In this document: positions 1,699 through 33,953 of the stretch, piece after piece
Layout: each line of letters starts with the position of its first letter
How positions within the stretch are numbered: position 1 is the stretch's first letter
IMG/VR virus record: IMGVR_UViG_3300045007_000250
Coordinates: 22,921 to 86,920 of that record
DNA length: 64,000 bases
Direction: 5' to 3' (one strand)
Origin: a virus
Position numbers and translations under genes: made by a program
The notes under the pieces: generated by a model
Told to the model about the DNA's origin: nothing
What the model saw: only the letters and a program-made list of their open reading frames with translations
Database searches by the model: none

Positions 1699-3045
1699 AT
1701 GACGACTCCTTTTGTGGATTCTTGGCTGCACCTACCCGTTGGACCATACAATCCGTCCACGTTGGCCGGGCGTCTGACTTTTTTGAGCCGAGCGTCCGAG
1801 TTTGACCCCACCGGTGCGCAGTCTCAGATAGACCTTTTCAAGATGGAGCCGGGTGGGATCGCCATTCCGCGCAATGCTGCAATCGTTCCGCGAAGTGTGA
1901 TCTTGGGTGCAACTGATTGCACTACCGCGGGGGATTATAGGCTTTTCAAAGCCCCGTCCATCACGCTTCGTCCTCATCAAGAGCCGGTGTTGGCAACCGT
2001 GATGGACGCTTTGAGTGGTTCGTATCCTTATGGTGGGATTATCCTGGCGAAGCCGGGAAGCGGAAAGACGGTGATGGCGTTGGAGGTCGCCCGCCGCCTG
2101 TGTCGCACCACCCTGATTTTGGTCCACACGACGGCTTTGATGACGCAGTGGGGAGACCGTATCCGTGAGCATCTTCCGGGTGCGCGGGTGGGTTTTGTTC
2201 GTCAAGGCATGTGTCAGTTCGGTGATAATTACGACTTCGTGGTGGGGATGCTAGAAAGTCTATCCGTCCGACAGTACCCTTCTGCGTTCTACCGATGGCC
2301 GGGTGTGGTGATTACGGATGAGGTTCACCGGCTTGGGGCGGAGACATGGGCACCAGTGATTGTGCAGTTTCCTGCGAAGGTGCGCCTTGGGTTGACGGCC
2401 ACCCCGCGACGCAAGGACGGGTTGGAGCCGGTTTTTTTCTGGCACGTCGGGCCGATCATTTCCACGGCGAAGCACGACGCGATTATGACCCCCACCGTGA
2501 AGGTGGTGAAGTACATCAAGACGTACAAACGAAACTTCATTCAGCGAAACGGGAACTTCAACAGGGCGCGGTGGCTTACCAGTATCGGAGAGGATGCGGA
2601 GCGGAATTGGGTGCTCTGCCAGTTCATTTTGAAGGCGTTGCGGAATGGTAGGAAGATTCTTTGTCTTTCTGATCGTCTTGAGCAGATTGCCGCGGTTCGC
2701 ACCATGCTTGCTCCCCACGTTCCGACCGGGAAGTGGGTTAGTCCCTACGTTGGGGAGTGTACTCCGGCGGAGCGAATGGAGGCCGTGGCGTCGGACGTGA
2801 TTATGGCAACGTACCCGATTGCGGCGGAGGGCTTGGACATACCGGACTTGGACACCCTTATTTTTATGACTCCCCGTGGCGATGTGGAGCAAGCAGTGGG
2901 GCGTATTCAGCGTGTGGTGCCGGGGAAGTTGACGCCGGTAGTCATAGACATTGTGGACGCGGCTTATAGGTTTGGGGTTGCACTGGCAAAGGTTCGGCGG
3001 CGGGTTTACGAAAGAATCGGGGCGATGATGCACGAAGGGCGTTGA
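1699..3045 (+). CDS. Superfamily 2 DNA helicase (DEAD/DEAH, UvsW/XPB-like)
   Basis: ATP-dependent helicase of 448 residues. Motif I (AKPGSGKT) lies near residue 118, motif II is DEVH near 206, motif III is LTATPRR, and motif VI is QAVGRIQR near 397, so both RecA-like lobes are present. Phage proteins of this kind (T4 UvsW is the model) remodel replication forks and recombination intermediates, which suits its place between the polymerase and a RecA-like gene. The start is ATG after GTGGTGAAGT. Its TGA stop is embedded in the TTGACA -35 box of the next promoter (3042-3070). Confidence 0.93.
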   Translation: MTTPFVDSWLHLPVGPYNPSTLAGRLTFLSRASEFDPTGAQSQIDLFKMEPGGIAIPRNAAIVPRSVILGATDCTTAGDYRLFKAPSITLRPHQEPVLATVMDALSGSYPYGGIILAKPGSGKTVMALEVARRLCRTTLILVHTTALMTQWGDRIREHLPGARVGFVRQGMCQFGDNYDFVVGMLESLSVRQYPSAFYRWPGVVITDEVHRLGAETWAPVIVQFPAKVRLGLTATPRRKDGLEPVFFWHVGPIISTAKHDAIMTPTVKVVKYIKTYKRNFIQRNGNFNRARWLTSIGEDAERNWVLCQFILKALRNGRKILCLSDRLEQIAAVRTMLAPHVPTGKWVSPYVGECTPAERMEAVASDVIMATYPIAAEGLDIPDLDTLIFMTPRGDVEQAVGRIQRVVPGKLTPVVIDIVDAAYRFGVALAKVRRRVYERIGAMMHEGR

Positions 3046-3070
3046 CAAGCCCCTTTTGGCGTGTTATAGT
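3042..3070 (+). promoter_or_regulatory. Phage-type promoter: TTGACA / 17 bp / TATAGT
   Basis: TTGACA at 3042-3047, spacer AGCCCCTTTTGGCGTGT, then TATAGT at 3065-3070, with an extended -10 TG. The spacer ends AGCC...GGCGTGT recur at other promoters in this window. It drives the gene at 3105. Confidence 0.88.
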
Positions 3071-3104
3071 TAGAAAGGGTGAAACTTTGAAAGGAGAAAC
3101 CCCC

Positions 3105-4040
3105 ATGAGAATACCCGTGAAAGCGAGACCAAGGACGAAGGGCGATGCTCTTCTGGTTTCTTCCGCAGCGTCCGGCGGACCCGTGCAAGACGGGGAGTTG
3201 TCGGAGACCGTGGATACCAGCGTTTTCGACGAGATTGACGGTGTGACGCCTGATCCGGTGGACGACGCCGCTTTGGAGAAGGAACATCTTGCGGCGGGCG
3301 CTTCGGTGGAAGAGGACGCCAATTTGGGTCCGGTGGCCCACATCGAAGACGCAGCGAATATGACGGAAGGCGACGCCGTGAGCGGTGACAAGCCGGTGAC
3401 GATTCCCCAGGGCGGCTTGCCGGTACTTGGCAAAGAGGGTGCTGTGGTGACTTCCGGCACCAAGACCGGGCGGTTTACCACGGCGGTCTCATCCGTCAAG
3501 GAAGTGGAGAAACCGGTGGATTTGGTGAAGGGGCGCGGGGATGCTCCGGTGGAAAAGCATCCGGCTCCGGCTCCCGGTGAGACGGCGGAGATCATCTTGG
3601 TTCCGTCCACCATTACCGTTCGCAAGCAATTCTTGAAAGTCACGGACGGCAAGATGAGGATGGTGCGGGAAGAGGAAAGCACGGAGACCATTGCCGTGCA
3701 TCGCTTCGTAACCATACCGGCGCAGCCGGGGTACACGGCGCAACGCACCGTCAACCTTGGGGACTTCAACTCCCTGAAAGTCGGCGTGTGGGGCACCGTT
3801 CCGTGCTACAAGGAGGAGTACGACGAGGCTTGCCAGTTCATTCAGGAACACACCGACGCTCGCATGGACTCCATTTCGGACGCGATTGACAAGAGCATGG
3901 AAGGCGGGGACGCACCGGAGACCACGTATGAGAAGACTCCGGTTTCCAAAGACAAGGAAACGGCTCCGGCTTCCGAGACCCCGGTGGCGGGAAAAGGTGT
4001 GCGTGAGATTTCCACGTTCAAGCTCCCGATTGTGAGGTAG
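3105..4040 (+). CDS. Hypothetical acidic, Pro/Ala/Glu/Thr-rich protein
   Basis: 311 residues, family not recognised. The frame is open from 3042, but that would start inside the promoter. ATG 3105, 9 bp after AAGGAG, is the right start. The protein begins basic (MRIPVKARPRTKG) and is then largely low-complexity and acidic, rich in Pro, Ala, Glu, Thr and Val, which suggests disorder. A more ordered segment around residues 165-260 includes TITVRKQFLKV and AQRTVNLGDFNSLKVGVW, and may be a small beta domain. It is followed after 3 bp by the sirtuin gene and is probably co-transcribed with the recombination genes. Function unknown. Confidence 0.8.
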   Translation: MRIPVKARPRTKGDALLVSSAASGGPVQDGELSETVDTSVFDEIDGVTPDPVDDAALEKEHLAAGASVEEDANLGPVAHIEDAANMTEGDAVSGDKPVTIPQGGLPVLGKEGAVVTSGTKTGRFTTAVSSVKEVEKPVDLVKGRGDAPVEKHPAPAPGETAEIILVPSTITVRKQFLKVTDGKMRMVREEESTETIAVHRFVTIPAQPGYTAQRTVNLGDFNSLKVGVWGTVPCYKEEYDEACQFIQEHTDARMDSISDAIDKSMEGGDAPETTYEKTPVSKDKETAPASETPVAGKGVREISTFKLPIVR

Positions 4041-4043
4041 GGT

Positions 4044-4805
4044 ATGGACGTGATGGCACAAGCAAAGACGGTCTTGGGGACCGCCAAGAAGATTGTGGTG
4101 TTGACCGGAGCGGGGATTTCCGTTGAAAGCGGTATCCCCGCCTTTCGCACCGATGCCGACGCCTTGTGGTCGAAGTTTGACATGGGCAAGGCCACGCTTT
4201 CCTATTTTCTCCATAACCCGGAAGGGTTTTGGAAGGCTCTTGGCCCGTTGGCGGGGAAGTTCATGGGCGCGAAGCCCAATGCTGCACATGCGGCTTTGGC
4301 CGGTTTGGAGCAGACCGGGCGCTTGAAGGCACTTATCACGCAGAACATTGACGGTCTTCATCAAGAGGCCGGGAGCAAGCGCGTGATCGAATTTCATGGC
4401 AATGCCCGGCGCTTGGTCTGCTTGAAATGCGGCAAGGCGTACTCCGTGGCGGAGATACTTGCCGTGCATGACCCGGAAAATGAGACCATCGTTCCGGCGT
4501 GTGAGTGTGGACAAATCCTGAAACCGGATGCCACCCTTTTCGGTGAATCAATACCCCCGGATGCGCTCAAGGCTGCGCTCAAGGCGGTGCGGGGAATGGT
4601 GGACGCCATGCTGATTGTCGGTACATCCGGTTCCATTCAACCGGCAAACCAGCTTCCTCAGATCGCCAAAGAGCGCGGTGTCAAAGTGATCGAAGTCAAT
4701 CCTTCCCCCACTCCGTACACTCAGCACCGGATTACGGATATTTTTGTGAAGGGGGCTGCGGGGATGGTGCTGCCGCAAATTTTGGGGGGAAAATTATGTC
4801 AGTAA
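4044..4805 (+). CDS. Sir2-family NAD-dependent protein deacylase (sirtuin)
   Basis: 253-residue sirtuin with all core motifs: GAGISVESGIPAFR (NAD pocket, residues 22-35), TQNIDGLH, the catalytic His in FHGN near residue 118, a Zn-binding Cys set (CLKC, then CEC), GTS and VIEVNPSP. Family members remove acyl groups from lysine using NAD, and some use NAD differently. This copy resembles compact CobB-type enzymes and has no extra domain such as those in defence Sir2 fusions. It sits between an acidic protein and a RecA-like gene, so it may act on host or phage proteins during takeover or affect NAD-based defence; both roles are inference. The Ala in SGIPAFR replaces the usual Asp of SGIPDFR. 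Confidence 0.93.
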   Translation: MDVMAQAKTVLGTAKKIVVLTGAGISVESGIPAFRTDADALWSKFDMGKATLSYFLHNPEGFWKALGPLAGKFMGAKPNAAHAALAGLEQTGRLKALITQNIDGLHQEAGSKRVIEFHGNARRLVCLKCGKAYSVAEILAVHDPENETIVPACECGQILKPDATLFGESIPPDALKAALKAVRGMVDAMLIVGTSGSIQPANQLPQIAKERGVKVIEVNPSPTPYTQHRITDIFVKGAAGMVLPQILGGKLCQ

Positions 4806-5002
4806 TTGCTACGAAACCGTGTTTTGATTTTGCGGGTGGTCCTGATGCGGGGATTTTGCCTTGTCAAACGGACGGGGCTTTTTCCGGCAAGGTAGAGTGC
4901 CTTGAATTACTTGAGGGCGGGTGTTGGTCCAAGTGTGTGATGGGCAAGCTGCACCCGCTTTACGAGGATTGGAAGTCGTCAAAGAAAGCGGTGTCAAAGT
5001 GA
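4796..5002 (+). CDS. Small Cys-rich hypothetical protein
   Basis: 68 residues with five cysteines and no recognised family. It overlaps the sirtuin end by 10 bp, and its TGA overlaps the GTG start of the recombinase gene. That coupled arrangement argues it is real. The spacing of the cysteines does not give a standard zinc-ribbon pattern. Confidence 0.6.
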   Translation: MSVIATKPCFDFAGGPDAGILPCQTDGAFSGKVECLELLEGGCWSKCVMGKLHPLYEDWKSSKKAVSK

Positions 5003-6273
5003 GCGAAAAGATCAACGCGAAGTACGGGCCGGGCACACTTGTTCGGCTCGGTGAGCAGGTGCTTGGGCACCGGATTTCCACTGGTATCTTCGACTTGGAC
5101 CTTGCCCTTGGCGGCGGGTGGCGTGGCCCTTTCGATGAGATTTGGGGTGGGCGTTCCACCGGAAAAAGCACGGTGGCGGCACATACGGTCCATGAGGCTC
5201 AACAGATTTGCCGGTACGACGGTTTGCTTCTCGGTGATCCGAAGGTGGAAGGAAATTCCCCCTTGCCGTTGGTGCCGACATGGACCGACCCGAAGGGTGG
5301 TCTGCATTCGGGGCCGGATACGGACACGGATGAGTTCAAGAAAGCCGCCTACGAAGTGAAGAAGGTCAAGGTCAAGGACGAAGAGGGGAAAGAGACCGGT
5401 GAAGTGCAGGAAGTCACCGTATTGCGCAAGGGGTGGGTGCAGCATCGGGTACAGGAGCCGCTTCGTTGCACCGTGGTCAACGTGGAGCAGGCGGTGGACC
5501 CGGATTGGTACATTCACTGCGGGGCTGACCGTGACTTGACCAATCTTTTGAACGTGACCACGACGGAGCACGTTGTTGACCTGATTGACGTGCTGATTCG
5601 GGAACAGACCGCCGATTTTGTGGTGCTGGATTCCATCGCGTCCATGTCTCCTCTGTGGGAGCAGGAGAACACGGCGGAGAAAAAGGCTCCTCCTAAAAAC
5701 GCCGAATTGCTCAACCGCGCCCTGCGCTGTTGGCTTGCCGCTATCGTGGCTCGGCAAGGCGCGACCGTCCTTCCCCGCATCCTGTTGGTCAACCAGGTGC
5801 GTTCCAAGATCAACCTGCCCTATCCCAACATGAATCCCGATGTAAAGACTGCCGGATTGGGGCAGGACTTTGCCTCTGTCTCCGAAGTGAAGTTAGAGCC
5901 GGGAAAGCATGACAAGTCCGATTTTCTGTCCCCGGAAGACGGCGGTTTGTCAATTCTCAACCGCACCAACTTCAAGGTGACGAAAAACAAGACCTACCCC
6001 CCTCTTGGTTATGGTCAGTTCATCACTTGCCTGATTGGGCACGACGGGTATTCACAGGGCGAGATCATGCAGCTTCGCTCGGTGTTCGAGACGGCGCGGC
6101 GGTACAACGTCATTCAGACCGTGAAAGACAAGTGGTTTCTCGGTGGCTTGGAGTTCCGCACGCAGAAGGCGGTGGCGGAGCATCTTCGGGAACATCCTGC
6201 TGATTTTCGCGCCTTGTGGCGGGTGCTGGTTCCCCTTGTCACTGCGGCGCGGATTGGTCGGAAAGTCGCATGA
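4999..6273 (+). CDS. RecA/UvsX-like recombinase
   Basis: Strand-exchange ATPase of 424 residues. Walker A GGRSTGKST lies near residues 50-58, Walker B VVLDSIAS near 207, followed by an L1/L2-type region with ILLVNQVRSK. The N-terminus, ISTGIFDLDLALGGGW, is typical of RecA and UvsX. GTG 4999 overlaps the preceding stop (GTGA) and matches where the fold begins, so the ATG at 4921 is rejected. Residues about 85-140 form a Lys/Glu-rich insertion (KKVKVKDEEGKETGE) not usual in RecA. It overlaps the nuclease gene by ATGA. It is likely to act with the helicase, RuvC-like and Cas4-like proteins in recombination-dependent replication or repair. Confidence 0.93.
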   Translation: MSEKINAKYGPGTLVRLGEQVLGHRISTGIFDLDLALGGGWRGPFDEIWGGRSTGKSTVAAHTVHEAQQICRYDGLLLGDPKVEGNSPLPLVPTWTDPKGGLHSGPDTDTDEFKKAAYEVKKVKVKDEEGKETGEVQEVTVLRKGWVQHRVQEPLRCTVVNVEQAVDPDWYIHCGADRDLTNLLNVTTTEHVVDLIDVLIREQTADFVVLDSIASMSPLWEQENTAEKKAPPKNAELLNRALRCWLAAIVARQGATVLPRILLVNQVRSKINLPYPNMNPDVKTAGLGQDFASVSEVKLEPGKHDKSDFLSPEDGGLSILNRTNFKVTKNKTYPPLGYGQFITCLIGHDGYSQGEIMQLRSVFETARRYNVIQTVKDKWFLGGLEFRTQKAVAEHLREHPADFRALWRVLVPLVTAARIGRKVA

Positions 6274-6665
6274 AGGCCCTGGCCGATCATATTCCTAGAA
6301 GGGTGGGGAAGAAAGTTGGGCGGGAGTGCGACGTTCCGACGTGGAAAAGGCAGGAGCGGCGGGTTGCGAAGCGGCGCGGGGCCAAGTTACAACCGAGAAG
6401 CGGGGCACACCCTACCCGGAAGGGGGACACTGTTGACTCCGTGGTGGTGATTGAAGCCAAGAGCACTAAGCACGCTTCCATCTCAATCACGGTGGGGCAT
6501 CTTCAAAGGGTGACGGATGCCGCACACGCGGCAGGGGTGTCCCCGGCCATGTCCTACACCTTCGAGAACATGCCGCCGGGGGTGGACCCGGATTGGGTTT
6601 TGATTCCGTTAGGGGTGTTCAACGCTTTGACTGGCACCCCGGAGCCGGGGTTGAAAGAGGGGTGA
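6270..6665 (+). CDS. PD-(D/E)XK nuclease, Holliday-junction-resolvase-like
   Basis: 131 residues from ATG 6270, translationally coupled to the recombinase. The core SGAHPTRKGD (Asp53), followed by VVVIEAKST (Glu62, Lys64), with an upstream QERR Glu, is the pattern of small phage PD-(D/E)XK nucleases of the Hjc type. The basic N-terminus (RRVGKKVGR) suits DNA binding. The fold assignment is firm, but whether the substrate is a four-way junction is inference, since a RuvC-like resolvase is encoded 2 kb downstream. An AT-flanked hairpin follows the stop. Confidence 0.8.
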   Translation: MKALADHIPRRVGKKVGRECDVPTWKRQERRVAKRRGAKLQPRSGAHPTRKGDTVDSVVVIEAKSTKHASISITVGHLQRVTDAAHAAGVSPAMSYTFENMPPGVDPDWVLIPLGVFNALTGTPEPGLKEG

Positions 6666-6668
6666 AAA

Positions 6669-6692
6669 AAAAGTGCAAGCGATTGCATTTTT
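6669..6692 (+). promoter_or_regulatory. Palindrome/hairpin 8 bp upstream of a promoter, possible terminator
   Basis: TGCAAGCGATTGCA at 6674-6687 extends to a 10-bp stem (AAAAG/TTTTT flanks, one G-T wobble) with loop GCGA, a GNRA tetraloop if RNA. A T tract follows. It can act as a terminator for the nuclease gene or, as DNA, as an operator 8 bp before the -35 at 6696. Confidence 0.7.
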
Positions 6693-6695
6693 CTC

Positions 6696-6724
6696 TTGAC
6701 AAGCCAAAAGTGGCGTGTTATATT
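6696..6724 (+). promoter_or_regulatory. Phage-type promoter: TTGACA / 17 bp / TATATT
   Basis: Spacer AGCCAAAAGTGGCGTGT carries the shared AGCC...GGCGTGT ends and an extended -10. The 23 bp at 6725-6747 downstream are identical to the leader of the minus-strand promoter at 22010-22038. Confidence 0.9.
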
Positions 6725-6775
6725 GTGCCCATGATGACACGGACCACAAACCACGAAACACGAAAGGGCACGACA

Positions 6776-7171: not shown

Positions 7172-7184
7172 TTGGTGAAGACAC

Positions 7185-7210
7185 GGGCGGGGGTAAAACC
7201 CCGCCCTTTT
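7185..7210 (+). terminator. Intrinsic terminator after the SWIM gene
   Basis: Perfect 8-bp GC stem GGGCGGGG/CCCCGCCC with a 6-nt loop, followed by TTTT. It excludes the upstream TTG/GTG starts for the next gene. Confidence 0.88.
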
Positions 7211-7231
7211 GTGCGTGAAATAGGAGTAAAA

Positions 7232-8215: not shown

Positions 8216-8904
8216 TGGAGAGACCCGTACCGAAGCCGGATGGCTTTGTTCATCCGACATGGGCTGTTGGCCTTGACTTGAGCTTGGATTCCGCCGGTGT
8301 GGTGGTTCTTGGCGATGGGCTGGTGCAGCATCACGAAGCCTTGCAGTATGCCCCTGTGTCCGCAGAGATGACCCGCACGAAGTCCGGTAAGAGCCAGTCC
8401 CTTACGTTGCGGCAGAAGGCGGCGCGATTGGCTTTCGTCTGTGATGGGGTGTGCCGAATCATGTTGGATGCCGGTACTCCGCACGCCGTCATTGAGAACT
8501 ACGCCTTTTCACGGGGCGGGGCTTCCGCGTCCGTGACCGGGTTGGCCGAAGTGTCCGGGGCGGTGCGGGTTGCTCTTTTCAAGATGGGGGTTGTCCCCCT
8601 GGTTGTGGAAGTTTCCGTGGCGCGGGCTTTTGTCTGCGGGAAGGGGAATGCGACCAAGGAAGACACCATTGCCGTGCTTCAAGGCGCGCAGTATGGAAAG
8701 CAGCAGTTTGGAACGGAAGATGAGTACGATGCAATGGCCTTGGCGCTGATTCTCTACTATCTTCGTAATCCGGGGAAGCGCGAGGGTTTGTCCATGAAGC
8801 AGGTGTTGACTCTCTCCCGGTGGAGTGACCGGGTGGATCGGGTGACGGGGGTGGTTGTGCCGTCAAAGTTCAAAAAAGTGCAACTGCTTGCACAGAAGCC
8901 TTGA
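8215..8904 (+). CDS. RuvC-like Holliday junction resolvase
   Basis: 229 residues with an RNase H-like fold: GLDLSLDSAG (Asp21), VIENYAF (Glu near 93) and DEYDAMALAL (Asp near 171-174) provide the acidic residues of RuvC. ATG 8215 overlaps the previous TGA. The gene ends inside regulatory DNA: its last codons form the TGCAACTGCTTGCA palindrome and its TGA is part of the next TTGACA box. It would resolve recombination intermediates or trim branched DNA before packaging. Confidence 0.88.
   Translation: MERPVPKPDGFVHPTWAVGLDLSLDSAGVVVLGDGLVQHHEALQYAPVSAEMTRTKSGKSQSLTLRQKAARLAFVCDGVCRIMLDAGTPHAVIENYAFSRGGASASVTGLAEVSGAVRVALFKMGVVPLVVEVSVARAFVCGKGNATKEDTIAVLQGAQYGKQQFGTEDEYDAMALALILYYLRNPGKREGLSMKQVLTLSRWSDRVDRVTGVVVPSKFKKVQLLAQKP
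8879..8892 (+). promoter_or_regulatory. TGCAA-N4-TTGCA palindrome 8 bp upstream of -35
   Basis: TGCAACTGCTTGCA ends exactly 8 bp before TTGACA at 8901, the same geometry as at 6674/6696 and on the minus strand at 18968/18959. The arms are kept although the centre differs. Confidence 0.65.
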
Positions 8905-8929
8905 CATTCCAAAAGCGGCGTGTTAGATT
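8901..8929 (+). promoter_or_regulatory. Phage-type promoter: TTGACA / 17 bp / TAGATT
   Basis: Spacer TTCCAAAAGCGGCGTGT, with the conserved GGCGTGT abutting the -10. The upstream stop codon lies in the -35 box. It drives the genes from 8972. Confidence 0.87.
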
Positions 8930-8971
8930 TTTCTATAGGGCTTAGTACCAGTTTGAGAAGGGGAAACGACA

Positions 8972-9939: not shown

Positions 9940-9955
9940 ACCGAGGGGGTGACGA

Positions 9956-14183: not shown

Positions 14184-14213
14184 TTGCATATTCCTCTTTT
14201 GGCGTGTTATGAT
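14184..14213 (+). promoter_or_regulatory. Phage-type promoter: TTGCAT / 18 bp / TATGAT
   Basis: The -35 is weaker than in the other members, but the spacer ends CTTTTGGCGTGT and the -10 is TATGAT, so it belongs to the same family. It drives the packaging genes. Confidence 0.7.
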
Positions 14214-17893: not shown

Positions 17894-17922
17894 TTGACAC
17901 GGCGGAAAAGGCGTGTTACGTT
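17894..17922 (+). promoter_or_regulatory. Phage-type promoter: TTGACA / 17 bp / TACGTT
   Basis: Spacer CGGCGGAAAAGGCGTGT; ACACG next to the -35 and CGTGT next to the -10 form the shared dyad. It drives the putative regulator at 17973. The 60 bp between the TerL stop and this promoter hold nothing else recognisable. Confidence 0.87.
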
Positions 17923-17972: not shown

Positions 17973-18383
17973 ATGAGCGACGTGAAGGAGAAGAAGCAGC
18001 AGCGATTGGCGGAGCGTTGGCGCACTCGGATTCTCGTGGAGCTTGGCACGATGACGGATGCGGCCTTGGCAAAGAAGTATTCCAAGAAGGTCGGATTCGT
18101 CATTGGGCGGCACACCATCTTCTATTTGCGCAAGGCCAATGGCATTCCGGCTTTTGAACAGCGGGCGTATTCGCCTCCGTCTTTCCGCGGTCGTTTGGAA
18201 GATGCGCACCCGGAGATCAAGGAGTTACTCGGTAAGGTGCCCGTGGTCGCGCTGGCGATGAGGTACGATGTGTCCCGGTCTTGCGTTCGGGCAGCGGCAC
18301 AACGCCTTGGGCTTCCGACCCGTGCGCAGAATTTCGACGATGTGATTGCCGCGGCAGAGGCTAAGGTACAAGCGACGGCGTAG
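17973..18383 (+). CDS. Putative DNA-binding regulator with two HTH-like segments
   Basis: 136 residues from ATG 17973 after GGAGAAAG; the ATG at 17934 lies closer to the -10 and has no RBS. Two similar segments, TMTDAALAKKYSKKVG with RHTIFYLRKANGIP, and VPVVALAMRYDVSR with SCVRAAAQRLGLP, each look like a helix-turn-helix that ends in an [RA].(4)GIP-type turn. The protein is basic. As a single-gene unit with its own family promoter, it is a candidate regulator of the phage promoters, possibly autoregulated; this is inference. Confidence 0.65.
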   Translation: MSDVKEKKQQRLAERWRTRILVELGTMTDAALAKKYSKKVGFVIGRHTIFYLRKANGIPAFEQRAYSPPSFRGRLEDAHPEIKELLGKVPVVALAMRYDVSRSCVRAAAQRLGLPTRAQNFDDVIAAAEAKVQATA

Positions 18384-18930: not shown

Positions 18931-18959
18931 ATTCTGACACGCCTTTTTCGGCTTGTCAA
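18931..18959 (-). promoter_or_regulatory. Phage-type promoter, minus strand: TTGACA / 17 bp / CAGAAT
   Basis: Read on the minus strand, the spacer is AGCCGAAAAAGGCGTGT, giving the clear dyad ACAAGCC-N6-GGCGTGT. The phage palindrome ends 8 bp upstream of the -35. It drives the island 1 operon. Confidence 0.88.
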
Positions 18960-18989
18960 GGAAAAAGTGCAAGCGATTGCATTTTTTCC
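18960..18989 (-). promoter_or_regulatory. Extended palindrome upstream of the island 1 promoter
   Basis: TGCAAGCGATTGCA at 18968-18981 is extended by GGAAAAAG/TTTTTTCC to a 13-bp stem with one G-T wobble. On the minus strand it ends 8 bp before TTGACA. Operator or transcript hairpin. Confidence 0.7.
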
Positions 18990-19075: not shown

Positions 19076-19104
19076 TTTATAACACGACTTTTTTGGCTTG
19101 TCAA
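19076..19104 (-). promoter_or_regulatory. Phage-type promoter, minus strand: TTGACA / 17 bp / TATAAA
   Basis: The minus-strand spacer is AGCCAAAAAAGTCGTGT, a close family member with one of the best -10 boxes here. It points away from the plus-strand promoter at 19158 and has no ORF immediately after it. Confidence 0.85.
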
Positions 19105-19157: not shown

Positions 19158-19186
19158 TTGACACGTCGGGAATGGCGTGTTAGGTT
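19158..19186 (+). promoter_or_regulatory. Phage-type promoter: TTGACA / 17 bp / TAGGTT
   Basis: Spacer CGTCGGGAATGGCGTGT. ACACG and CGTGT flank the centre as a dyad. It drives the microprotein cluster starting at 19215. Confidence 0.87.
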
Positions 19187-19913: not shown

Positions 19914-20038
19914 TGGTGTGGAGACCTGAGACAGAACGCGGTGCTTGGGTCGTGCGGTGCTCTCAAAGACCGGGAAGAAAAATAATCTTTCAGTTGACAA
20001 CGCTTTTTGGGTGTGTCAGAGTATCCGGTAATGAGTGA
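19913..20038 (+). CDS. Possible 41-residue microprotein
   Basis: ATG 19913 overlaps the previous TGA and is 7 bp after GAGGAGGG, a strong ribosome site. The product (MVWRPETERGAWVVRC...) has no known family. The ORF runs through the promoter at 19994-20022, which weakens the call. Confidence 0.4.
   Translation: MVWRPETERGAWVVRCSQRPGRKIIFQLTTLFGCVRVSGNE
19994..20022 (+). promoter_or_regulatory. Phage-type promoter: TTGACA / 17 bp / CAGAGT
   Basis: Spacer ACGCTTTTTGGGTGTGT. The -10 ends 8 bp before the ATG at 20031, so the transcript would be nearly leaderless. Confidence 0.7.
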
Positions 20039-22009: not shown

Positions 22010-22038
22010 ACTCTAACACGGCTTTTCCGGCTTGTCAA
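22010..22038 (-). promoter_or_regulatory. Phage-type promoter, minus strand: TTGACA / 17 bp / TAGAGT
   Basis: The minus-strand spacer is AGCCGGAAAAGCCGTGT. Promoter and following 23 bp (21987-22009) nearly duplicate the plus-strand promoter at 6696 and its leader. Confidence 0.9.
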
Positions 22039-25730: not shown

Positions 25731-25768
25731 GCGGGCGGCTTCCTTCTCTGCCATCGTGAACCCCTAAA

Positions 25769-25797: not shown

Positions 25798-25801
25798 ATG
25801 C

Positions 25802-25830
25802 TTGACACGCCATCTTTGACCTGATAGAGT
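25802..25830 (+). promoter_or_regulatory. Phage-type promoter for the lysis cassette: TTGACA / 17 bp / TAGAGT
   Basis: Keeps ACACGCC after the -35, but the right half of the dyad is changed to GACCTGA. It could therefore be released from, or respond differently to, the shared regulator. Confidence 0.8.
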
Positions 25831-25862
25831 TGAAAATGGTTGACAACTCTTAGGGGATCAAT

Positions 25863-26138: not shown

Positions 26139-26145
26139 GGTACCT

Positions 26146-26949: not shown

Positions 26950-27143
26950 GAAAGCGCCTGCTTTTTCTGGCGTGGTGGTTTGAGACGGTGTACCCCGTAT
27001 TACAGAAGCCGGATGGTACTCCGATTCTGAATCAGCATGGTACGTCGGTTCAAGACGATTTGCGACGGTGGGCGCGCTCTCTTTGGTGGAAACGCCTTTT
27101 TCTTTTCGGGGCCGGGGTTGTCCTGGGGTTGCTGATTGAGTGA
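26946..27143 (+). CDS. Small membrane protein of the lysis cassette
   Basis: 65 residues, ATGA overlap with the endolysin. The C-terminal membrane segment (LFLFGAGVVLGLLIE) and amphipathic Trp-rich regions (LAWWFETVYP; SLWWKRLF) suggest an accessory holin, antiholin or i-spanin-like role. No partner o-spanin was identified. Confidence 0.65.
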   Translation: MRKRLLFLAWWFETVYPVLQKPDGTPILNQHGTSVQDDLRRWARSLWWKRLFLFGAGVVLGLLIE

Positions 27144-27492: not shown

Positions 27493-28099
27493 TCCTCTCA
27501 CCCCGGAGCATGTTGGGCCAAACTCGGTGGACTTGACGTTGGCCGACGTGCTAATTCTCTATGAGCTTGCGCTGGATGACGGGATCATTCGACAGCAGGC
27601 GACCCCGGATGGGAAGCAGTTGGTGTTGCCGATTTTCTTGGACACGGCCAATGCGCAACACCCATCCTTGTCCTTGAAAATTCCTGAATCCGGTCTCCTA
27701 CTTCGCCCCGGCAAATTCTACTTGGCGGCGTGCCGGGAGAGGGTGCAGGCGGATGAGTACGTGGCGGAGATTCAGTCGCGCTCTTCCGTTACCCGTCTTG
27801 GCTTGATTGTTCATGGCGGGGTGGGGGAGATGGGCGCGACGGGAACGTGGACCTTTGGGCTTCAACCGTTGGTGCCCGTGTACGTTCGCCCTGGTTTGCG
27901 TATCTGCAAAATGGTGTTTCACAAGGCGGAAGCCGGTGGGACGCTCTATCGGGGCAAGTACCTCAATGAAACTGGTGTGGGCGCTTCCAAGATCGGTTTG
28001 GACGTGAAAAAGCGTCCCCCTTTGGAAGTTGTGTCGCCCGCCCCGGAGTCTGGCAGTTCCGAACCGGCGAAGCGGAAGGAGGCGGAAAAAAATTCTTGA
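27434..28099 (+). CDS. dcd: dCTP deaminase / dUTPase-family protein
   Basis: 221 residues. GPNSVDLTLADVL, IQSRSSVTRLGLIVHGG and VRPGLRICKMVFH match the trimeric dCTP deaminase/dUTPase fold, including the RSS(V)xRLG substrate loop. It makes dUTP/dUMP from dCTP or removes dUTP, feeding thymidylate synthesis. ATG 27434 with GAGAGGAAG upstream aligns with the family start MLLTGTEIRKA; the ATG at 27368 adds a basic 22-residue extension. Its TGA lies inside the next TTGACA box. The C-terminal 30 residues are basic and disordered. Confidence 0.85.
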   Translation: MLLTGTEIRKAMEEGRIIVDPLTPEHVGPNSVDLTLADVLILYELALDDGIIRQQATPDGKQLVLPIFLDTANAQHPSLSLKIPESGLLLRPGKFYLAACRERVQADEYVAEIQSRSSVTRLGLIVHGGVGEMGATGTWTFGLQPLVPVYVRPGLRICKMVFHKAEAGGTLYRGKYLNETGVGASKIGLDVKKRPPLEVVSPAPESGSSEPAKRKEAEKNS

Positions 28100-28124
28100 C
28101 AAGCCCTTCATGGCGTGTTAGATT
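28096..28124 (+). promoter_or_regulatory. Phage-type promoter: TTGACA / 17 bp / TAGATT
   Basis: Spacer AGCCCTTCATGGCGTGT; full ACAAGCC-N6-GGCGTGT dyad. It drives 28166 and perhaps the reductase gene. Confidence 0.9.
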
Positions 28125-28165
28125 TGGGGCATGGTAAGGACTAACCACGAAAGGAGACCTTGACC

Positions 28166-28846: not shown

Positions 28847-28886
28847 TTCTCGGCGCGTTGGAAGCGGTTTTGGTCTTGCTCTAGCA

Positions 28887-28924
28887 CGCGGAAGAGGCTA
28901 CCATGTTCGGTAGTCTTTTCCGCG
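28887..28924 (+). promoter_or_regulatory. 16-bp hairpin in the ribonucleotide reductase leader
   Basis: CGCGGAAGAGGCTACC (28887-28902) pairs with GGTAGTCTTTTCCGCG (28909-28924) across a 6-nt loop. All 16 positions pair, two as G-U. It ends 19 bp before the reductase ATG and has no T tract after it, so it looks like a leader element rather than a terminator. A weak promoter (TTGGAA/18 bp/TAGCAC, 28858-28887) overlaps its left edge. Confidence 0.7.
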
Positions 28925-28943
28925 TTGCATTCAGGGGTTGACG

Positions 28944-30914
28944 ATGTTGCCGATTACGCCTTTCCAGCTTACCGACACATTTCTTGAGCAATACAAACAC
29001 AAGCCCCCGGCGTGGGGTTACGGAGTAGTTGGATGGCTCACCTTTCTTCGCACATACGCCCGTCCAAAAGAGGGTGGTGGTGTGGAAGACTGGTGGGAGA
29101 CCGTAAAGCGCGTGGTGGAGGGGTGTTACGCGGTCCAACGGTATCACTGCGACTTGCATAAACTTCCGTGGAATGGGCAGAAAGCGCAGCATTCAGCGCA
29201 GATCATGTACGACCTGATTTTTCACTTCAAATTCCTTCCGCCGGGCCGTGGGTTGTGGGCGATGGGCACTGACTATGTGTGGACCCGTGGTGCGGCTTCC
29301 CTCAATAATTGTTCTTTCTATTCCACGAGGGATATTCGACAGGACTTTGCCGCGCCTTTCCTCTTTTTGATGGACATGAGTATGGTCGGTGTGGGTGTTG
29401 GTCTGGACACCCGTGGTGCAGGCACTTGCACTATCAAGCACCCGCCCGGTCAGTCGTCCAATCCTTTCGTGGTGGAAGATTCGCGGGAAGGGTGGGTGGC
29501 GTCGGTCAAAGTTCTTTTGGATGCCTTCTCCGGCAAGGGTCCATTGCCTAGCGGCTTTGATTACTCGCGGGTGAGACCGGCGGGGAGTCCATTGCGGGGT
29601 TTCGGTGGGGTGGCTTCTGGTCCCGGTCCTTTGGAGGAGTGCCACGATGCTCTGCTTGGTCTTTTTACAGATCACATTGAGAGGCCGGTGACTTCCCGGA
29701 TCATCGTGGACATGGCCAACATTCTCGGTCGGTGCGTGGTGGCCGGGGGCATTCGTCGGACGGCGGAGAACATCTTGGGCGCTCCCGATGACGCCGAATT
29801 TTTGGACTTGAAAAATCCGTCTCTGCATCCCAAGGAGTTGCGGGAGTGGCGGTGGGCAAGCAACAATTCCGTGCTGGCGGAAGTCGGCATGGATTACTCT
29901 CCGTTTGTGGATCGCGTGATGGCGAACGGGGAGCCGGGTTTTTTCTGGTTGGACAACGCACAGCACTACCGCAGGATGGCCGATCCCCGCGGGGATTGGG
30001 ACACTTTTGCTCTTGGGTGTAATCCGTGTTTTGAGCAGACGTTGGAATCAGGTGAATTATGCAATTTGGTTGAGACCTTTCCCGCGCACCATGCTTCTTA
30101 CGAGGAGTACCAACGCACCCTCAAGTTCGCCTACCTTTTTGCCAAGGTGGTCTCTCTGATTCCCACGCATAACTCCAACTCCAACGCGATTATCGGTCGG
30201 AACAGGCGTGTGGGTACGTCCATGAGCGGCATCACGCAGGCGATTCACAAATTCGGCTTCCGGCAGTTCATGGAGATGTGCAATCGCGGTTACAACTATC
30301 TGCGGCATCTGGACAAGATTTACTCGCGGTGGCTTTGTATCCCCGAATCCATCAAGCTCACGTCGGTCAAACCGTCCGGCACCGTCTCGTTATTGGCTGG
30401 GGCCACTCCCGGTATTCACTTTCCCAAGGCACAGTTCTACGTTCGCAACATTCGGTTTGATCCGTTGTCACCCCTTTTGGAAGTCTTGGCCAAGGCGGGG
30501 TATTCAACGGAGTCTTCGGTGGCGAAGGATGGTACGGTGGTTGTATCGTTCCCTGTGGAACAGCCGCACTTTTTGAAGTCAGAGGGGAACGTCTCCTTGT
30601 GGGAGCAGATGGAATTGGCCGCGCAGATGCAGCATTGTTGGGCGGACAATCAGGTGTCTATCACCGTTGCTGTGCGTGATCGTGATGCGGCAGACCTGCC
30701 TCGGTGTCTTTCCATGTACGATACTCGTTTGAAGAGCGTGAGCTTCATTCCAGAGGGGAAGAAGCACGGCTTCAAGCAGGCTCCATACATTCCGATTACG
30801 GAAGACGAATACAAGGAGATGAGGGCGAAGATCAAACCCCTCAAGGGGATGGCCGGAGCCGCGGCCCATGAGGTCACGGAAAAGGGTTGTGATGGCGAAA
30901 CCTGCACAATCTGA
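28944..30914 (+). CDS. nrdJ: Class II (adenosylcobalamin-dependent) ribonucleotide reductase
   Basis: 656 residues, the size and pattern of the monomeric Lactobacillus-type enzyme. It converts ribonucleotides to deoxyribonucleotides using B12. PGRGLWAMGTDY and SLNNCSFYS, GVGLDTRGAG, GGIRRTAENILG, NPCFEQTLESGELCN (active-site Cys and Glu) and PSGTVSLLAGATPGIH are present. The C-terminal GCDGETCTI supplies the Cys pair that is re-reduced by thioredoxin. No separate small subunit is needed. It works with the dCTP deaminase upstream to supply DNA precursors. Confidence 0.95.
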   Translation: MLPITPFQLTDTFLEQYKHKPPAWGYGVVGWLTFLRTYARPKEGGGVEDWWETVKRVVEGCYAVQRYHCDLHKLPWNGQKAQHSAQIMYDLIFHFKFLPPGRGLWAMGTDYVWTRGAASLNNCSFYSTRDIRQDFAAPFLFLMDMSMVGVGVGLDTRGAGTCTIKHPPGQSSNPFVVEDSREGWVASVKVLLDAFSGKGPLPSGFDYSRVRPAGSPLRGFGGVASGPGPLEECHDALLGLFTDHIERPVTSRIIVDMANILGRCVVAGGIRRTAENILGAPDDAEFLDLKNPSLHPKELREWRWASNNSVLAEVGMDYSPFVDRVMANGEPGFFWLDNAQHYRRMADPRGDWDTFALGCNPCFEQTLESGELCNLVETFPAHHASYEEYQRTLKFAYLFAKVVSLIPTHNSNSNAIIGRNRRVGTSMSGITQAIHKFGFRQFMEMCNRGYNYLRHLDKIYSRWLCIPESIKLTSVKPSGTVSLLAGATPGIHFPKAQFYVRNIRFDPLSPLLEVLAKAGYSTESSVAKDGTVVVSFPVEQPHFLKSEGNVSLWEQMELAAQMQHCWADNQVSITVAVRDRDAADLPRCLSMYDTRLKSVSFIPEGKKHGFKQAPYIPITEDEYKEMRAKIKPLKGMAGAAAHEVTEKGCDGETCTI

Positions 30915-31116
30915 AAGAAGGCGATTGCAAAGTTGTCGAAATTGCCGCACAGTATGTGTGGTAAGGGATTCGTCCGGGCTTTGTGACTTGTGCCGCGGAG
31001 TGCCCGTTGCTTCCACGGTTCGCAAGGTGGGTTTCGACAATGAAAGTGTGGTGACACGCACCTTGTTTGGTGGGAGAGAAGATGCCCGAAGAAAAGTCAA
31101 ACAAAGATTCCGCTAG
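30892..31116 (+). CDS. Small zinc-ribbon protein overlapping reductase and portal genes
   Basis: 74 residues. CRNC...C, then CDLC 15-20 residues later, gives a four-Cys zinc ribbon in a very basic protein. It overlaps the reductase end by 23 bp and the portal start by 35 bp. The Cys pattern resembles the other microproteins at 19215 and 20031. Confidence 0.55.
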   Translation: MAKPAQSERRRLQSCRNCRTVCVVRDSSGLCDLCRGVPVASTVRKVGFDNESVVTRTLFGGREDARRKVKQRFR

Positions 31117-33907
31117 GCCGGGGTATTTTGAGGCTCTTGTTGCCGATTCCGAGCTAACCATTGTCAAGGTTTTCGGTGGCGAGAGTGACGTGGGTTTACC
31201 CGGAGCCGCGAAGTCTCAACAGCTTCCGCCTAACTACTTTGAGCAGGACATTCGTGCGGGGAAGGTTATTGCTCCGCTCTATGATCCGCTGGTGTGGGCT
31301 TTCCTTCTTGAGCAGAGTACCCGCCTCGCCACGCTGGTTCGCAGCATGGCGAACAACACCGTGGGGTTGGGATGGGAGCTTGTGCCGGTCAAGGAAGAGG
31401 AGACGTGGCTTGAACAGAACAAGGATGCAATCGCGGCGGAGAAAGAGAACGTCACCGGTCTCTTTGAGGCTCCCAATCCTGAGTTGCCTTTCTGTGAAAC
31501 TCTAAAGTGCGTCAAGATTGATGAGGAAGCGACCGGCGGCGGTTGGCTTGAAGTGTTGCCCACCGTGAGCGATCCTCACGCCATTGCCGGTTTTGACCAC
31601 ATCCCGTCCTATACGATGCGCGTTGCCAAAGAAGGCGACAAATACGTGCAAATGCGTCCTTCCGACACGTCCAAGCGCGTGTATTTCAAGCCGTATGGGG
31701 AACGGCGTGACTTGAATTGCGAAACCGGCGAGTGGGGGACGGACAAGATTCCGGTGCCGAAGGACAAGCTGGCGCATGAGGTTCTTTACTGGAAGCTCTA
31801 CTCTCCGCGGTCTTCTTTTTACGGTGTCCCGCGTGCTGTTGCCACCGCACCGGCGATTGCCGGAACACGCTTGGCGCACCGGCGGAACGTCAATTTTTTC
31901 GAGAATGATGCATGTCAGCCAAAAAGTGCAATGATTCTCACACCTTACGGGTGGTCCACGATGGGGGAGATGTGCGTTGGCGCTCTTGTCATCGGTTCTG
32001 ATGGCAAGGCTCATGCGGTTACGGGGGTCTTCCCACAGGCCGGTGAGCGGGATGTGTACCGGGTGCATTTCTTCGGCGGTGCTTCAACGGAATGCTCTTT
32101 GGATCACGTTTGGACCGTGACCAACGCTTATGATCGGAAGCGGGGTGTGATGCGAAAGATGACCCTAGAGGATATTCTCAAAGACGGTTTATTCTACGAG
32201 TGCGGTACGGCGAAGTGGGCCGTGCCGATGCTGGACCCCGTGGAGTATGCGCCGGTGGAATCTCTCTCCGTGGACCCCTATTTGCTTGGGTATCTTTTGG
32301 GTAATGGGTGCTTGCGTGGCGGTGGGGTATCCATTTCTTGCAATGCTACCGACACGGATTTTGTGGAGAGCATGTTTAAGAGTACCACGGGACTTCCCGT
32401 TTCTCGGTCGGATATGAAAGGTTGGTCCACGCTGCGATCTTGTGGTGGTCGTAATAATTCCATCCGTGAGGCGTTGAAAGTCTTGGGTGTTTACGGTCTT
32501 TTGGGAAAGGAGAAATTCATTCCTGAGAGCTACTTGCGGGCGTCTGTGGCGGATCGTACTGCTCTTCTTCAAGGTTTGATTGATTCGGATGGGCATGTGG
32601 GGGATACTTTTGTCCGCTTTACGACGGCCTCGCGCCGCTTGGCGGAGGGCGTGCAGGATTTGGTGGGTTCCTTGGGGGGTGCTACGACGTTTGCTCCTTG
32701 TAAGGGGCGCTCCACCATGAATGTCACCATTCGGCAGTTGCCGGAAGAGATTGTGCCGGTGCGTTTGCCTCGAAAGGCTGCGGCCTATTCAATGTTGTCG
32801 GTGACACGGGTTCGCACCATGATAGGTGCAGAGTTTGTCCGAAAAGAAGCGGTACAGTGTATTCGCGTGGACACGCCGGATTCGCTTTACGTCACGGATA
32901 ATTTCATTCTTACGCACAATACGCCCCGGTTGGCCGTGGTCGTGAACGGCGGGGAGCTTTCGTCCGAGAGCCTTGAGATGATTCGGGACTTTGCGGAAGT
33001 TCGTGGGAAGGGTGTGGCGAATGCCGGGCGTGTCATGGTGTTGCAGGCGCGTGCCGCGGATAACATCACGCAGAACACGGATCAGTTGAAGATTCAGTTG
33101 GTGCCTTTGACAGTTGGTGTGCAGGATGACGCCTCGTTTGCCAAATACATCGCCATGAACAATGAAGAGATCAGGGAAGCCTTCGGTATCGGGCAGATTT
33201 TCATTGGTACGTCGGACAACGTGAACCGGGCCGTGGCTCTGGCAATGAAGCAGTTGACCGTGGAGCAGGTCTTTGAGCCGGAAGCCGTGCGGTACGAGTA
33301 CAAATTCAACCTCATCTTGCGTGATCGTTTCGGTGTGAAGCACATCCGGTTGAAGTTCAAGCGGCCTCGTACCACGGATTTGCAGGCGGAGGCACAGGCA
33401 TTCTCCATGTTGGCCGCGGCTGGCGGAGTTACGCCCAACGACATTCGTGACTTCCTTGGAAAGCCGCGGTTTGAGGGCGCGTGGGCCAACACTCCCATCG
33501 CCATTCTTCGTTCCGGCATGATGGAGAAACGTGGTGAAGCGGATGCGACTCTTTGGACGCATTACGGGGACAAGCTGCCGTCTATGCGTCTTACGGATGA
33601 ACAGGCTGATTTGGCCGAGGCTCAAGCGGGGACGGCGAAGCAGCAAGGAGAGACGCAAAAGATAATGGTACCGATGCAGCAAGAGGGTCTGAAAGCGCAG
33701 TTGGAAGTGACCAAAGCGCAGGCTGCGAAGCTCTTGCAGGAAGCCAGAACAGGCGGGCAGGCTCCGACTCCGACGCAGATTCAGGCTGCGGCGAAGGAGT
33801 TTTGGGATGATGACTACCTCGCGCTCATGGAGCAGGTGCAATCGCTTGCAGACAAGCTCGCTGGACTCGGCATGGCGGTGGAAGTTCGTCCGGTGGTGGA
33901 GATATGA
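31082..33907 (+). CDS. Portal protein precursor containing an intein
   Basis: 941 residues as translated, about 605 after removal of a 336-residue intein. The portal is the dodecameric DNA channel at one capsid vertex. N-extein: LVWAFLLEQSTRLATLV, YYWKLY-type (EVLYWKLYSPRSSFYG) and NVNFFENDA; C-extein begins TPRLAVVVNGG and includes EIREAFGIGQIF. These fit the phage PBSX-like portal family. The C-terminal 100 residues are Gln/Ala-rich coiled coil. ATG 31082 follows GGGAGAG. Splicing is needed to restore a functional channel. Confidence 0.92.
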   Translation: MPEEKSNKDSARPGYFEALVADSELTIVKVFGGESDVGLPGAAKSQQLPPNYFEQDIRAGKVIAPLYDPLVWAFLLEQSTRLATLVRSMANNTVGLGWELVPVKEEETWLEQNKDAIAAEKENVTGLFEAPNPELPFCETLKCVKIDEEATGGGWLEVLPTVSDPHAIAGFDHIPSYTMRVAKEGDKYVQMRPSDTSKRVYFKPYGERRDLNCETGEWGTDKIPVPKDKLAHEVLYWKLYSPRSSFYGVPRAVATAPAIAGTRLAHRRNVNFFENDACQPKSAMILTPYGWSTMGEMCVGALVIGSDGKAHAVTGVFPQAGERDVYRVHFFGGASTECSLDHVWTVTNAYDRKRGVMRKMTLEDILKDGLFYECGTAKWAVPMLDPVEYAPVESLSVDPYLLGYLLGNGCLRGGGVSISCNATDTDFVESMFKSTTGLPVSRSDMKGWSTLRSCGGRNNSIREALKVLGVYGLLGKEKFIPESYLRASVADRTALLQGLIDSDGHVGDTFVRFTTASRRLAEGVQDLVGSLGGATTFAPCKGRSTMNVTIRQLPEEIVPVRLPRKAAAYSMLSVTRVRTMIGAEFVRKEAVQCIRVDTPDSLYVTDNFILTHNTPRLAVVVNGGELSSESLEMIRDFAEVRGKGVANAGRVMVLQARAADNITQNTDQLKIQLVPLTVGVQDDASFAKYIAMNNEEIREAFGIGQIFIGTSDNVNRAVALAMKQLTVEQVFEPEAVRYEYKFNLILRDRFGVKHIRLKFKRPRTTDLQAEAQAFSMLAAAGGVTPNDIRDFLGKPRFEGAWANTPIAILRSGMMEKRGEADATLWTHYGDKLPSMRLTDEQADLAEAQAGTAKQQGETQKIMVPMQQEGLKAQLEVTKAQAAKLLQEARTGGQAPTPTQIQAAAKEFWDDDYLALMEQVQSLADKLAGLGMAVEVRPVVEI
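31913..32920 (+). other. LAGLIDADG intein in the portal protein
   Basis: 336 codons. Starts with Cys (CQPKSAMILTPYGWSTM, block A), has block B ECSLDHVWT, two LAGLIDADG-type helices (YLLGYLLGNGCL and LLQGLIDSDGHVG), and ends LYVTDNFILTHN with Thr as the +1 residue. All splicing residues (Cys1, block B His, His-Asn, +1 Thr) are present, so it should be active. It inserts between FFENDA and TPRLAVVV, a conserved portal core site. The homing endonuclease appears intact. Confidence 0.93.
33837..33850 (-). repeat. Palindrome copy (reverse orientation) in the portal gene
   Basis: TGCAATCGCTTGCA, exact reverse complement of the repeated 14-mer, 58 bp before the portal stop. Confidence 0.7.
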
Positions 33908-33924
33908 TTGACAACGAAATAGAC

Positions 33925-33953
33925 TTGACACGTTTTCGTGTGTTCTGTATCAT
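33925..33953 (+). promoter_or_regulatory. Phage-type promoter: TTGACA / 17 bp / TATCAT
   Basis: Spacer CGTTTTCGTGTGTTCTG. Here the dyad is compact: ACACG-TTTT-CGTGT, starting inside the -35 box and ending 6 bp into the spacer's second half. It drives the head genes from 34007. Confidence 0.85.

Follow-up and report, generated by a model that had tools for sequence, protein, structure and literature searches.

The window considered here is a 64-kb stretch of viral DNA (64,000 nucleotides), the last 64 kb of the 86,920-base IMG/VR record IMGVR_UViG_3300045007_000250 (G000), and its subject is a family of putative promoters that carry a dyad in the spacer between the -35 and -10 boxes. Negative coordinates refer to the part of the record upstream of the window. 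A second record, IMGVR_UViG_3300045008_000200 (G001; 83,213 bases), has stretches of 26.8 and 39.2 kb, arranged in permuted order, that are 99.97 and 99.99% identical to G000; it lacks window positions 3920-24839 and has an extra 17.2 kb (G001:39163-56374) that is absent from G000. The simplest inference from these two incomplete assemblies is that both derive from a single phage whose genome, circular or permuted, measures about 104 kb, and G000 plus the G001-only part (~104 kb) served as the non-redundant sequence for what follows. Family matches identify a contractile tail (sheath, tail tube and baseplate J), a family A DNA polymerase, RecA, a class II ribonucleotide reductase, Sir2, CobT-like and CbbQ-like proteins, and DNA methyltransferases. 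The terminase is 34.7-37.2% identical to Vibrio and Stenotrophomonas phage terminases (among the 25 of 369 matches listed), part of a structural protein resembles the major capsid proteins of Streptomyces phages, at 35-42% identity over 44-54% of its length (among the 25 of 188 matches listed), and the first 24 kb of the window has no near match in the phage collection.

The promoter family was delimited from every TTGACA in the non-redundant sequence (n = 73), of which 25 are followed after exactly 17 bp by a -10 with A at position 2 and T at position 6, spacer letters being left out of the choice. At least five of the seven letters of a right arm, GGCGTGT, are present in 21 of these 25 and in 1 of the 48 other TTGACA (Fisher p = 2e-13); at least two of the three letters of a left arm, GCC at spacer positions 2-4, are present in 22 of 25 versus 8 of 48 (p = 3e-9). 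C at spacer position 4 (sp4) occurs in 23 of 25 versus 17 of 48, and sp12 taken alone does not differ across the 73 sites (15/25 versus 20/48, p = 0.15). These Fisher p-values are too small, as related sites are not independent draws and 11 have common flanks. The sole right-arm match among the other 48, at 19104, has a -10 ending in A. The 22 right-arm matches, together with 25802 (degenerate right arm), make up a family of 23 sites, 11 of them in the window; scanning the whole phage extended it beyond the range first noted, with six sites upstream in G000 and six in the G001-only part. Left out were 33925, 55268 (inside a called gene), -1002 and 14185 (no TTGACA). The family consensus is TTTTnnC TTGACA [A/C]G(C/T)C N6 G(G/A)CGTGT TA(G)nTT.

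A matrix built from the 23 members themselves, for which the gap rather than the scores is informative, gives them 25.2-40.6. The next score is 18.1 (-1002, another promoter), followed by 10.2 and 9.4 (members read on the opposite strand), then 9.0 at G001:41402 and 8.8 at 14185, with a reporting threshold of 4; the reversed G000 sequence reaches at most 3.8. The empty interval below the members marks a discrete family. Searching the window for TTGACANGCC-N6-GGCNTGT with up to three mismatches returned 20 matches at 11 sites, nine of them matched on both strands, whereas 100 shuffles searched in the same way averaged 2.4 and reached at most 7. Mean information is 1.10 bits in the arms, 0.37 in the N6, 0.31 in the upstream flank and 0.18 in the downstream flank.

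By their letters the sites have the traits of sigma70 promoters, with a 17-bp spacer in all and A2/T6 in 22 of 23 (19104 lacks T6). The -10 is atypical, mostly TAG/C-n-TT; each position from -42 to -39 is T in 13-15 of the 23 sites, and -36, before TTGACA, is C in 19. The 17 bp seen in every member is also the spacing at which the sites were selected and the matrix constructed; exact arms, sought at gaps of 0-15, are present only at gap 6 (five sites). Overlap with called genes is 4 bp or less for 22 of the 25 TTGACA-N17 sites versus 6 of the 48 other TTGACA, the gene calls being simple ones made in this analysis with some starts misplaced. Family sites lie before or between called genes, with minus-strand 22038, 19104 and G001:54792 inside doubtful small plus-strand calls. 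The distance from -10 end to called start is 8-175 nt in 20 members, and three have no called start within 250 nt.

The first-pass annotation of this DNA had listed twelve TTGACA-N17 sites, and all twelve exist (Table 1). Its minus-strand positions, 18931, 19076 and 22010, mark -10 ends, the TTGACA starting at 18959, 19104 and 22038. Its description of most spacers as starting AGCC or CGCC and ending GGCGTGT fits seven of the twelve in each respect. The site at 33925, taken there for a compact member, has a spacer without the GCC and GGCG arms and falls below the matrix threshold; it carries a different, shorter dyad of its own, ACACG-TTTT-CGTGT, overlapping the -35. The promoter counted at 14184 survives only as a degenerate relative, far below the member scores.

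Table 1. Promoter-like sites, upstream palindromes and a candidate regulator gene (window coordinates unless prefixed G001)
Feature	Position	Strand	Sequence (spacer / -10, or element)	Remarks
Family promoter	3042..3070	+	TTGACA-AGCCCCTTTTGGCGTGT-TATAGT	before gene 3105
Family promoter	6696..6724	+	AGCCAAAAGTGGCGTGT / TATATT	before gene 6776
Family promoter	8901..8929	+	TTCCAAAAGCGGCGTGT / TAGATT	before gene 8972
Family promoter	17894..17922	+	CGGCGGAAAAGGCGTGT / TACGTT	before candidate regulator 17973
Family promoter	18931..18959	-	AGCCGAAAAAGGCGTGT / CAGAAT	12/12 dyad bases; before gene 18900-18742(-)
Family promoter	19076..19104	-	AGCCAAAAAAGTCGTGT / TATAAA	-10 without T at position 6
Family promoter	19158..19186	+	CGTCGGGAATGGCGTGT / TAGGTT	divergent from 19104(-)
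Weaker family promoter	19994..20022	+	ACGCTTTTTGGGTGTGT / CAGAGT	matrix 25.2
Family promoter	22010..22038	-	AGCCGGAAAAGCCGTGT / TAGAGT	before open reading frame 21972-21556(-)
Family promoter, degenerate right arm	25802..25830	+	CGCCATCTTTGACCTGA / TAGAGT	matrix 28.1
Family promoter	28096..28124	+	AGCCCTTCATGGCGTGT / TAGATT	before genes 28166 and 28944 (ribonucleotide reductase)
Degenerate relative	14185..14213	+	TGCATA-TTCCTCTTTTGGCGTGT-TATGAT	matrix 8.8; before ParB-like gene 14241 and terminase
Sigma70-like promoter, not a member	33925..33953	+	spacer CGTTTTCGTGTGTTCTG	before gene 34007 and structural genes
Second palindrome	6673..6688	+	GTGCAAGCGATTGCAT	A-run and T-run either side; upstream of -35 of 6696
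Second palindrome	8878..8893	+	GTGCAACTGCTTGCAC	upstream of 8901; no T-run
Second palindrome	18967..18982	.		upstream of -35 of 18959(-)
Further second-palindrome copies	-15889, -9091, G001:42993, G001:54800			
Candidate regulator, 136 residues	17973..18383	+		two helix-turn-helix-like segments by eye; directly behind family promoter 17894

The arms of the spacer mirror each other. Column symmetry over spacer columns 1-14 is best at axis 13.5, midway between the ACA that ends the -35 and the TGT before the -10 (mean 0.46 versus 0.13-0.33 at the other eleven axes; column-permutation p = 0.004), and even the weaker columns are mirror images, C/T at sp3 against G/A at sp12. The first-pass claim of symmetric bases in fixed register, beyond what sigma70 needs, thus stands at the very axis it implied. 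Within-site complementarity of three arm pairs, each out of 23, is 16 versus 14.5, 11 versus 10.1 and 22 versus 22.0 predicted from the columns; arms that pair without covariation fit two protein subunits, each reading its own arm, and do not fit an RNA stem. At the centre, 17 of 23 sites have AA or TT as their two innermost bases; self-complementarity of the innermost pair is seen in 2 of 23 versus 8.8 expected.

The main arm bases are retained where the surroundings of the sites are unrelated. Twelve sites have flanks whose likeness stays within a limit set at 4 above the 99th percentile for 300 random pairs; all of them except 25802 had been chosen on the right arm and none on the left. Among these twelve, sp4 is C in 12, sp11 G in 11, sp14 G in 11 and sp2 G in 10, with lower values at sp13 (C in 9), sp12 (G in 8) and sp3 (C in 6). 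An AA or TT centre is found in only six of them, so part of the centre bias is cassette ancestry. Strong dyads are also confined to promoters: at least 11 of the 12 dyad letters occur at 17 places in the non-redundant sequence, of which 15 are family promoters, against 0.4 in shuffled sequence, the other two being -16919 and G001:47343. At ten letters five of eight places are members (shuffled 5.0), at nine letters 2 of 44 (shuffled 51) and at eight letters 1 of 278 (shuffled 319), such that weak members are recognisable only through being promoters.

The reading favoured here, at a probability of about 0.6, is that the 23 sites are promoters for host sigma70, each with the same operator of about 20 bp in its 17-bp spacer, and that one symmetric, probably dimeric repressor silences or times their transcription units. 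The operator, ACA-m-GyC-N6-GrC-G-TGT, takes in the final three bases of the -35 and runs up to the -10. A DNA-binding protein docked there would exclude RNA polymerase, and a single such protein, presumably phage-encoded, could silence or time about two dozen transcription units at once. A spacer of 17 bp is optimal and occupancy of an operator within it should, by established promoter logic, exclude polymerase; repression is favoured over activation because the spacing is already ideal and the dyad overlaps the -35. The dimeric regulator proposed in the first-pass annotation is strengthened by the symmetry and by arms that vary independently, as protein contacts would; the likeness to stoperators that it drew does not hold, given that 15 of 17 strong dyads lie in promoters.

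A number of observations weigh against this reading. The symmetry is imperfect, in that the first base of the left arm is A in 15 sites, C in 7 and T in 1, and is complementary to the right-arm G in 6 of 23. The G at -16 and the TGT may be ordinary extended -10 bases. Eleven of the 23 sites are linked by common upstream or downstream flanks, as copies of a cassette, and eight members have only 8-10 of the 12 dyad letters, a range in which chance places are common. The set is found in one phage species only and so lacks an independent evolutionary replicate. Searches by protein family brought no regulator to light in either record: integrase/tyrosine recombinase (PF00589) was found in 0 of 2 versus 14 of 14 control genomes, although a diverged fold with no sequence match could escape; HTH_3 (PF01381) in 0 of 2 versus 14 of 14; S24 (PF00717) in 0 of 2 versus 12 of 14; resolvase (PF00239) in 0 of 2 versus 11 of 14; and sigma70_r4 only as a match below cut-off inside the terminase frame. 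The candidate encoded at 17973-18383 is unmatched at E 0.01 among 50,697 phage records, its only counterpart in IMG/VR (in a search reaching close relatives) is an identical copy in another contig of this phage, and its single-sequence fold is uninformative (predicted local distance difference test score, pLDDT, 44).

More generally, Pfam and PHROGs yielded no confident helix-turn-helix (HTH) regulator among the first 25 families listed and in a rescan of 73 mostly small proteins. Two small HTH proteins had been put forward at first pass: that at 17973 shows a GntR match below cut-off (E 0.014), and that at 27136 no Pfam match up to E 0.5. The only special claim of 17973 is its position directly behind a family promoter, which it has in common with many genes. 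The L088:17305-18351 protein gives winged-HTH matches below cut-off, and a ParB_N protein is present, with no ParA among the 25 of 65 families listed. As integrase or CI-type genes were not found, the role of the putative regulator leans to shut-off of early genes in the lytic cycle or to an unusual plasmid-like lysogeny, a switch of the lytic cycle being no less probable than lysogeny.

It could also be that the spacer bases are part of the promoter itself, a consensus read by host RNA polymerase, possibly altered by a factor of the phage, such as an AsiA/MotA-like pair or the alpha C-terminal domain (alpha-CTD)-like protein encoded at G001:43970-44368, with no dimeric operator. Most TTGACA-N17 promoters of the phage carry the right arm (21/25), G-16, T-15 and G-14 fit an extended -10, and conservation of the atypical -10, of T at -42 to -39 and of C at -36 would all suit such an element. 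However, the C at sp4 and the G at sp11, which are among the most invariant bases, lie mid-spacer, where sigma70 is not known to contact bases, and a mirror arrangement with a permutation p of 0.004 is unexpected of polymerase contacts; we consider this explanation unlikely. As to the alpha-CTD-like protein (132 residues; L098:3970-4368), its match to PF03118, the alpha-CTD family of bacterial RNA polymerase, has an E value of 1.6e-9 and 37.8 bits against a cut-off of 23.8, with a Cys-rich N-terminus preceding the domain; it could contact either polymerase or promoter DNA on the upstream side.

Recent duplication of a mobile cassette (hairpin, T-run, promoter and leader) would make the sameness of the sites a matter of ancestry and not of an operator. 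The 11 sites linked by flanks speak for duplication, as does a second palindrome, GTGCA-N6-TGCA, that recurs just upstream of the -35 in nine family promoters, usually between an A-run and a T-run. Two of its copies fold as hairpins of -9.0 and -8.1 kcal/mol (z -3.1 and -4.0), but a third, at 8901, gains little over shuffles (z -1.0). Against ancestry as a complete account, the 12 flank-unrelated sites keep the main arm bases, N6 and flanks having diverged where the arms have not. Duplication can thus be the origin, and explain part of the sameness, without being the full explanation, as which it is quite improbable. The common flanks suggest that cassette duplication may be a route by which such a regulon spreads. 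The second palindrome itself may be a terminator-like hairpin or another protein site. Two copies lie between divergent promoter pairs (-15896/-15866 and G001:54792/54823), serving both, and two similar words, at -18429 and 15087, are away from family promoters.

The phage promoters might instead obey a global repressor of the host, the sites being that repressor's operators. The absence of a phage repressor from the family searches would be accounted for in this way, but the exact 18-base core was found in only 21 stretches, one match each, across 84,980 species of bacteria and archaea represented by a single genome apiece, which makes the proposal very improbable; hosts outside the collection, or with looser sites, would escape this count. 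Arithmetic for uniform random sequence of equal size gives about 7 matches. Two of the 21 stretches come from one assembly and have the same sequence, no other assembly having more than one; 18 of the 21 have a -10 ending in T, and most are probably real but isolated promoters. The concern voiced at first pass, that these spacer ends might be common in host promoters, is not borne out in this set, outside which the phage host may lie.

Among viruses, the 16-base pattern matched 83 stretches of IMG/VR. Ten records were scanned whole at two mismatches, eight of them other than G000 and G001; in seven of these eight there is a single site, and in G006 there are three, two of which are at two mismatches. 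Several other IMG/VR contigs, scanned as stretches around the match, have two related sites with no -10. Sets of at least five sites turned up only in contigs of this phage (G000, G001 and IMGVR_UViG_3300045611_000247), and a stricter viral scan matched G001 alone. A scan by terminase gave 214 relatives, of which 80 loci were kept (stretches of 3-22 kb), one of them (L090) being this phage; two terminase relatives appear among the best 60 matrix matches over all loci, with one site each (L114, 19.5; L138, 15.3).

That the dyad is read as an RNA or DNA hairpin, or as a methylation mark, rather than by a dimeric repressor deserves almost no credence: the dyad is able to pair, the phage encodes DNA methyltransferases, and the arms are fully paired in a single TTGACACGCC...GGCGTGTTA promoter of AT-rich unrelated contigs, but arm mismatches here go uncompensated, the two sites that were folded hardly surpass shuffles (z -0.9 and -1.2) and no Rfam match in the window reaches gathering score. 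An RNA hairpin in particular was rejected for its uncompensated arms and weak folds.

The preferred repressor reading invites comparison with known systems. Operators of tet and lac type between -35 and -10 act by steric repression; the position is the same, those being single loci with identified repressors. MerR-type activator sites have their dyad in a lengthened spacer of 19-20 bp, and activation of this type was set aside, all 23 sites being at 17 bp (the spacing at which the set was drawn) with exact arms only at gap 6. The operators of 434 are palindromic and overlap promoter boxes, and A/T centres matter for repressors of this type; the present sites are palindromic and overlap the boxes, with an AA or TT centre in 17 of all 23 but in only 6 of the 12 whose flanks are unrelated. 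Of the repressor families of lambda/434-type CI systems, neither HTH_3 nor S24 is matched here. The conserved inverted repeats of the temperate phage phiC31, which has a known repressor and integrase, likewise repeat a single dyad operator many times over, upstream of genes throughout the genome; repressor and integrase, searched by family, were not found here. The mobile-seeming promoter/stem-loop cassettes of T4-type phages resemble the present sites as recurring units of hairpin plus promoter; their spacers are not known to contain an operator dyad. Many stoperators of L5 type lie outside promoters.

Four further systems are characterised in the literature. In SPbeta, a 15-bp operator (SPBRE) is repeated in promoter regions, with ten prominent ChAP-seq peaks, and had been predicted by sequence long before its repressor, MrpR, a prophage protein with a tyrosine-recombinase fold (PMC10516654). 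SPBRE shares with the present sites the repetition of one short operator in promoter regions of a large phage genome, and differs from the dyad of about 20 bp fixed inside a spacer in a phage with no PF00589 match; the case resembles SPBRE before the discovery of MrpR. Stoperators of cluster A (L5-type) phages are many genome-wide copies of one repressor site, asymmetric and oriented (PMC9283540, PMC4351075). Such sites are unlike the ones described here, which are symmetric (axis 13.5, p = 0.004) with their strong dyads confined to promoters (15/17), and the stoperator model was rejected. The 17-bp dyad of cluster O phages, TGTTCGG-N3-CCGAACA, occurs in more than 30 copies in phages without integrase, most not near promoters and about a third in coding regions, and a dimeric binder is suspected (PMC4351075). 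In that description a multi-copy dyad goes with a lack of integrase, none being matched here either, whereas the present dyad is embedded in promoters. The SAS/ESAS repeats of cluster K stand before many genes, half with an inverted-repeat part, and are tied to start codons (PMC3203893); unlike these repeats as so described, the present sites are tied to -35 and -10, at variable distance from the start. No title among the literature matches listed describes a spacer-dyad promoter family. In kind the arrangement is ordinary, a multi-copy phage operator, of which it is a clear example.

Genes behind the sites include Sir2 downstream of 3042 (a SIR2 match placed by translation), CbbQ-like (-9068) and CobT-like (-7657) genes and, behind 25802, a small membrane-protein gene (25863) and a CHAP-domain gene (26146), which are probable lysis genes. 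Ahead of the main structural operon, which runs from 34007, lies 33925 with no family dyad; ahead of the ParB and terminase genes lies the degenerate 14185. This placement looks like a split of pre-late from late genes, though not a clean one, as the portal gene at 31082 lies behind 28096, whose dyad is perfect, and a family promoter also stands before the probable lysis genes. Tentatively, and with more doubt than belief, a fuller scheme may be sketched in which a single promoter/operator cassette, duplicated many times, governs a large part of the genome of a phage with no recognisable CI-type repressor or integrase; a regulator of undescribed family, perhaps 17973-18383 behind its own copy, would shut off pre-late genes in the lytic cycle, and the structural operon promoter at 33925, lacking the operator, would escape. 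A multi-operator system in a phage showing no integrase would bear on early-gene timing in lytic phages. The 23 sites in fixed register offer an exact regulon for an otherwise uncharacterised phage, the dyad sequence a bait for its regulator, and the natural arm variants a series for measuring affinity.

Several side observations concern neighbouring genes and other contigs. The portal gene (31082-33907) contains a LAGLIDADG-like domain (E 1.4e-8), which suggests an intein or an in-frame endonuclease insertion. The segment G001:49940-52953, absent from the record of the window, has genes resembling a Type I methyltransferase and a specificity subunit, as judged by inspection of translations. 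A number of AT-rich viral contigs (L008, L016, L017, L018, L010, L033 and similar; GC content 0.37-0.41) have one TTGACACGCC-N6-GGCGTGTTA promoter each, near gene boundaries and with arms that pair fully, possibly a promoter overlapping a terminator. Finally, a contig with 34% terminase identity (L148, IMGVR_UViG_3300013101_000007; GC content 0.37) has a promoter set of its own, TTGACA-N6-ATTATACGTGTATAAT (e.g., G010:62989-63016), in which the spacer is conserved, with a dyad ATTATAC-GT-GTATAAT over the -10 at 11 places with up to three mismatches, eight of them exact; judged from these words, the logic of a promoter-embedded dyad recurs there with a different dyad word.

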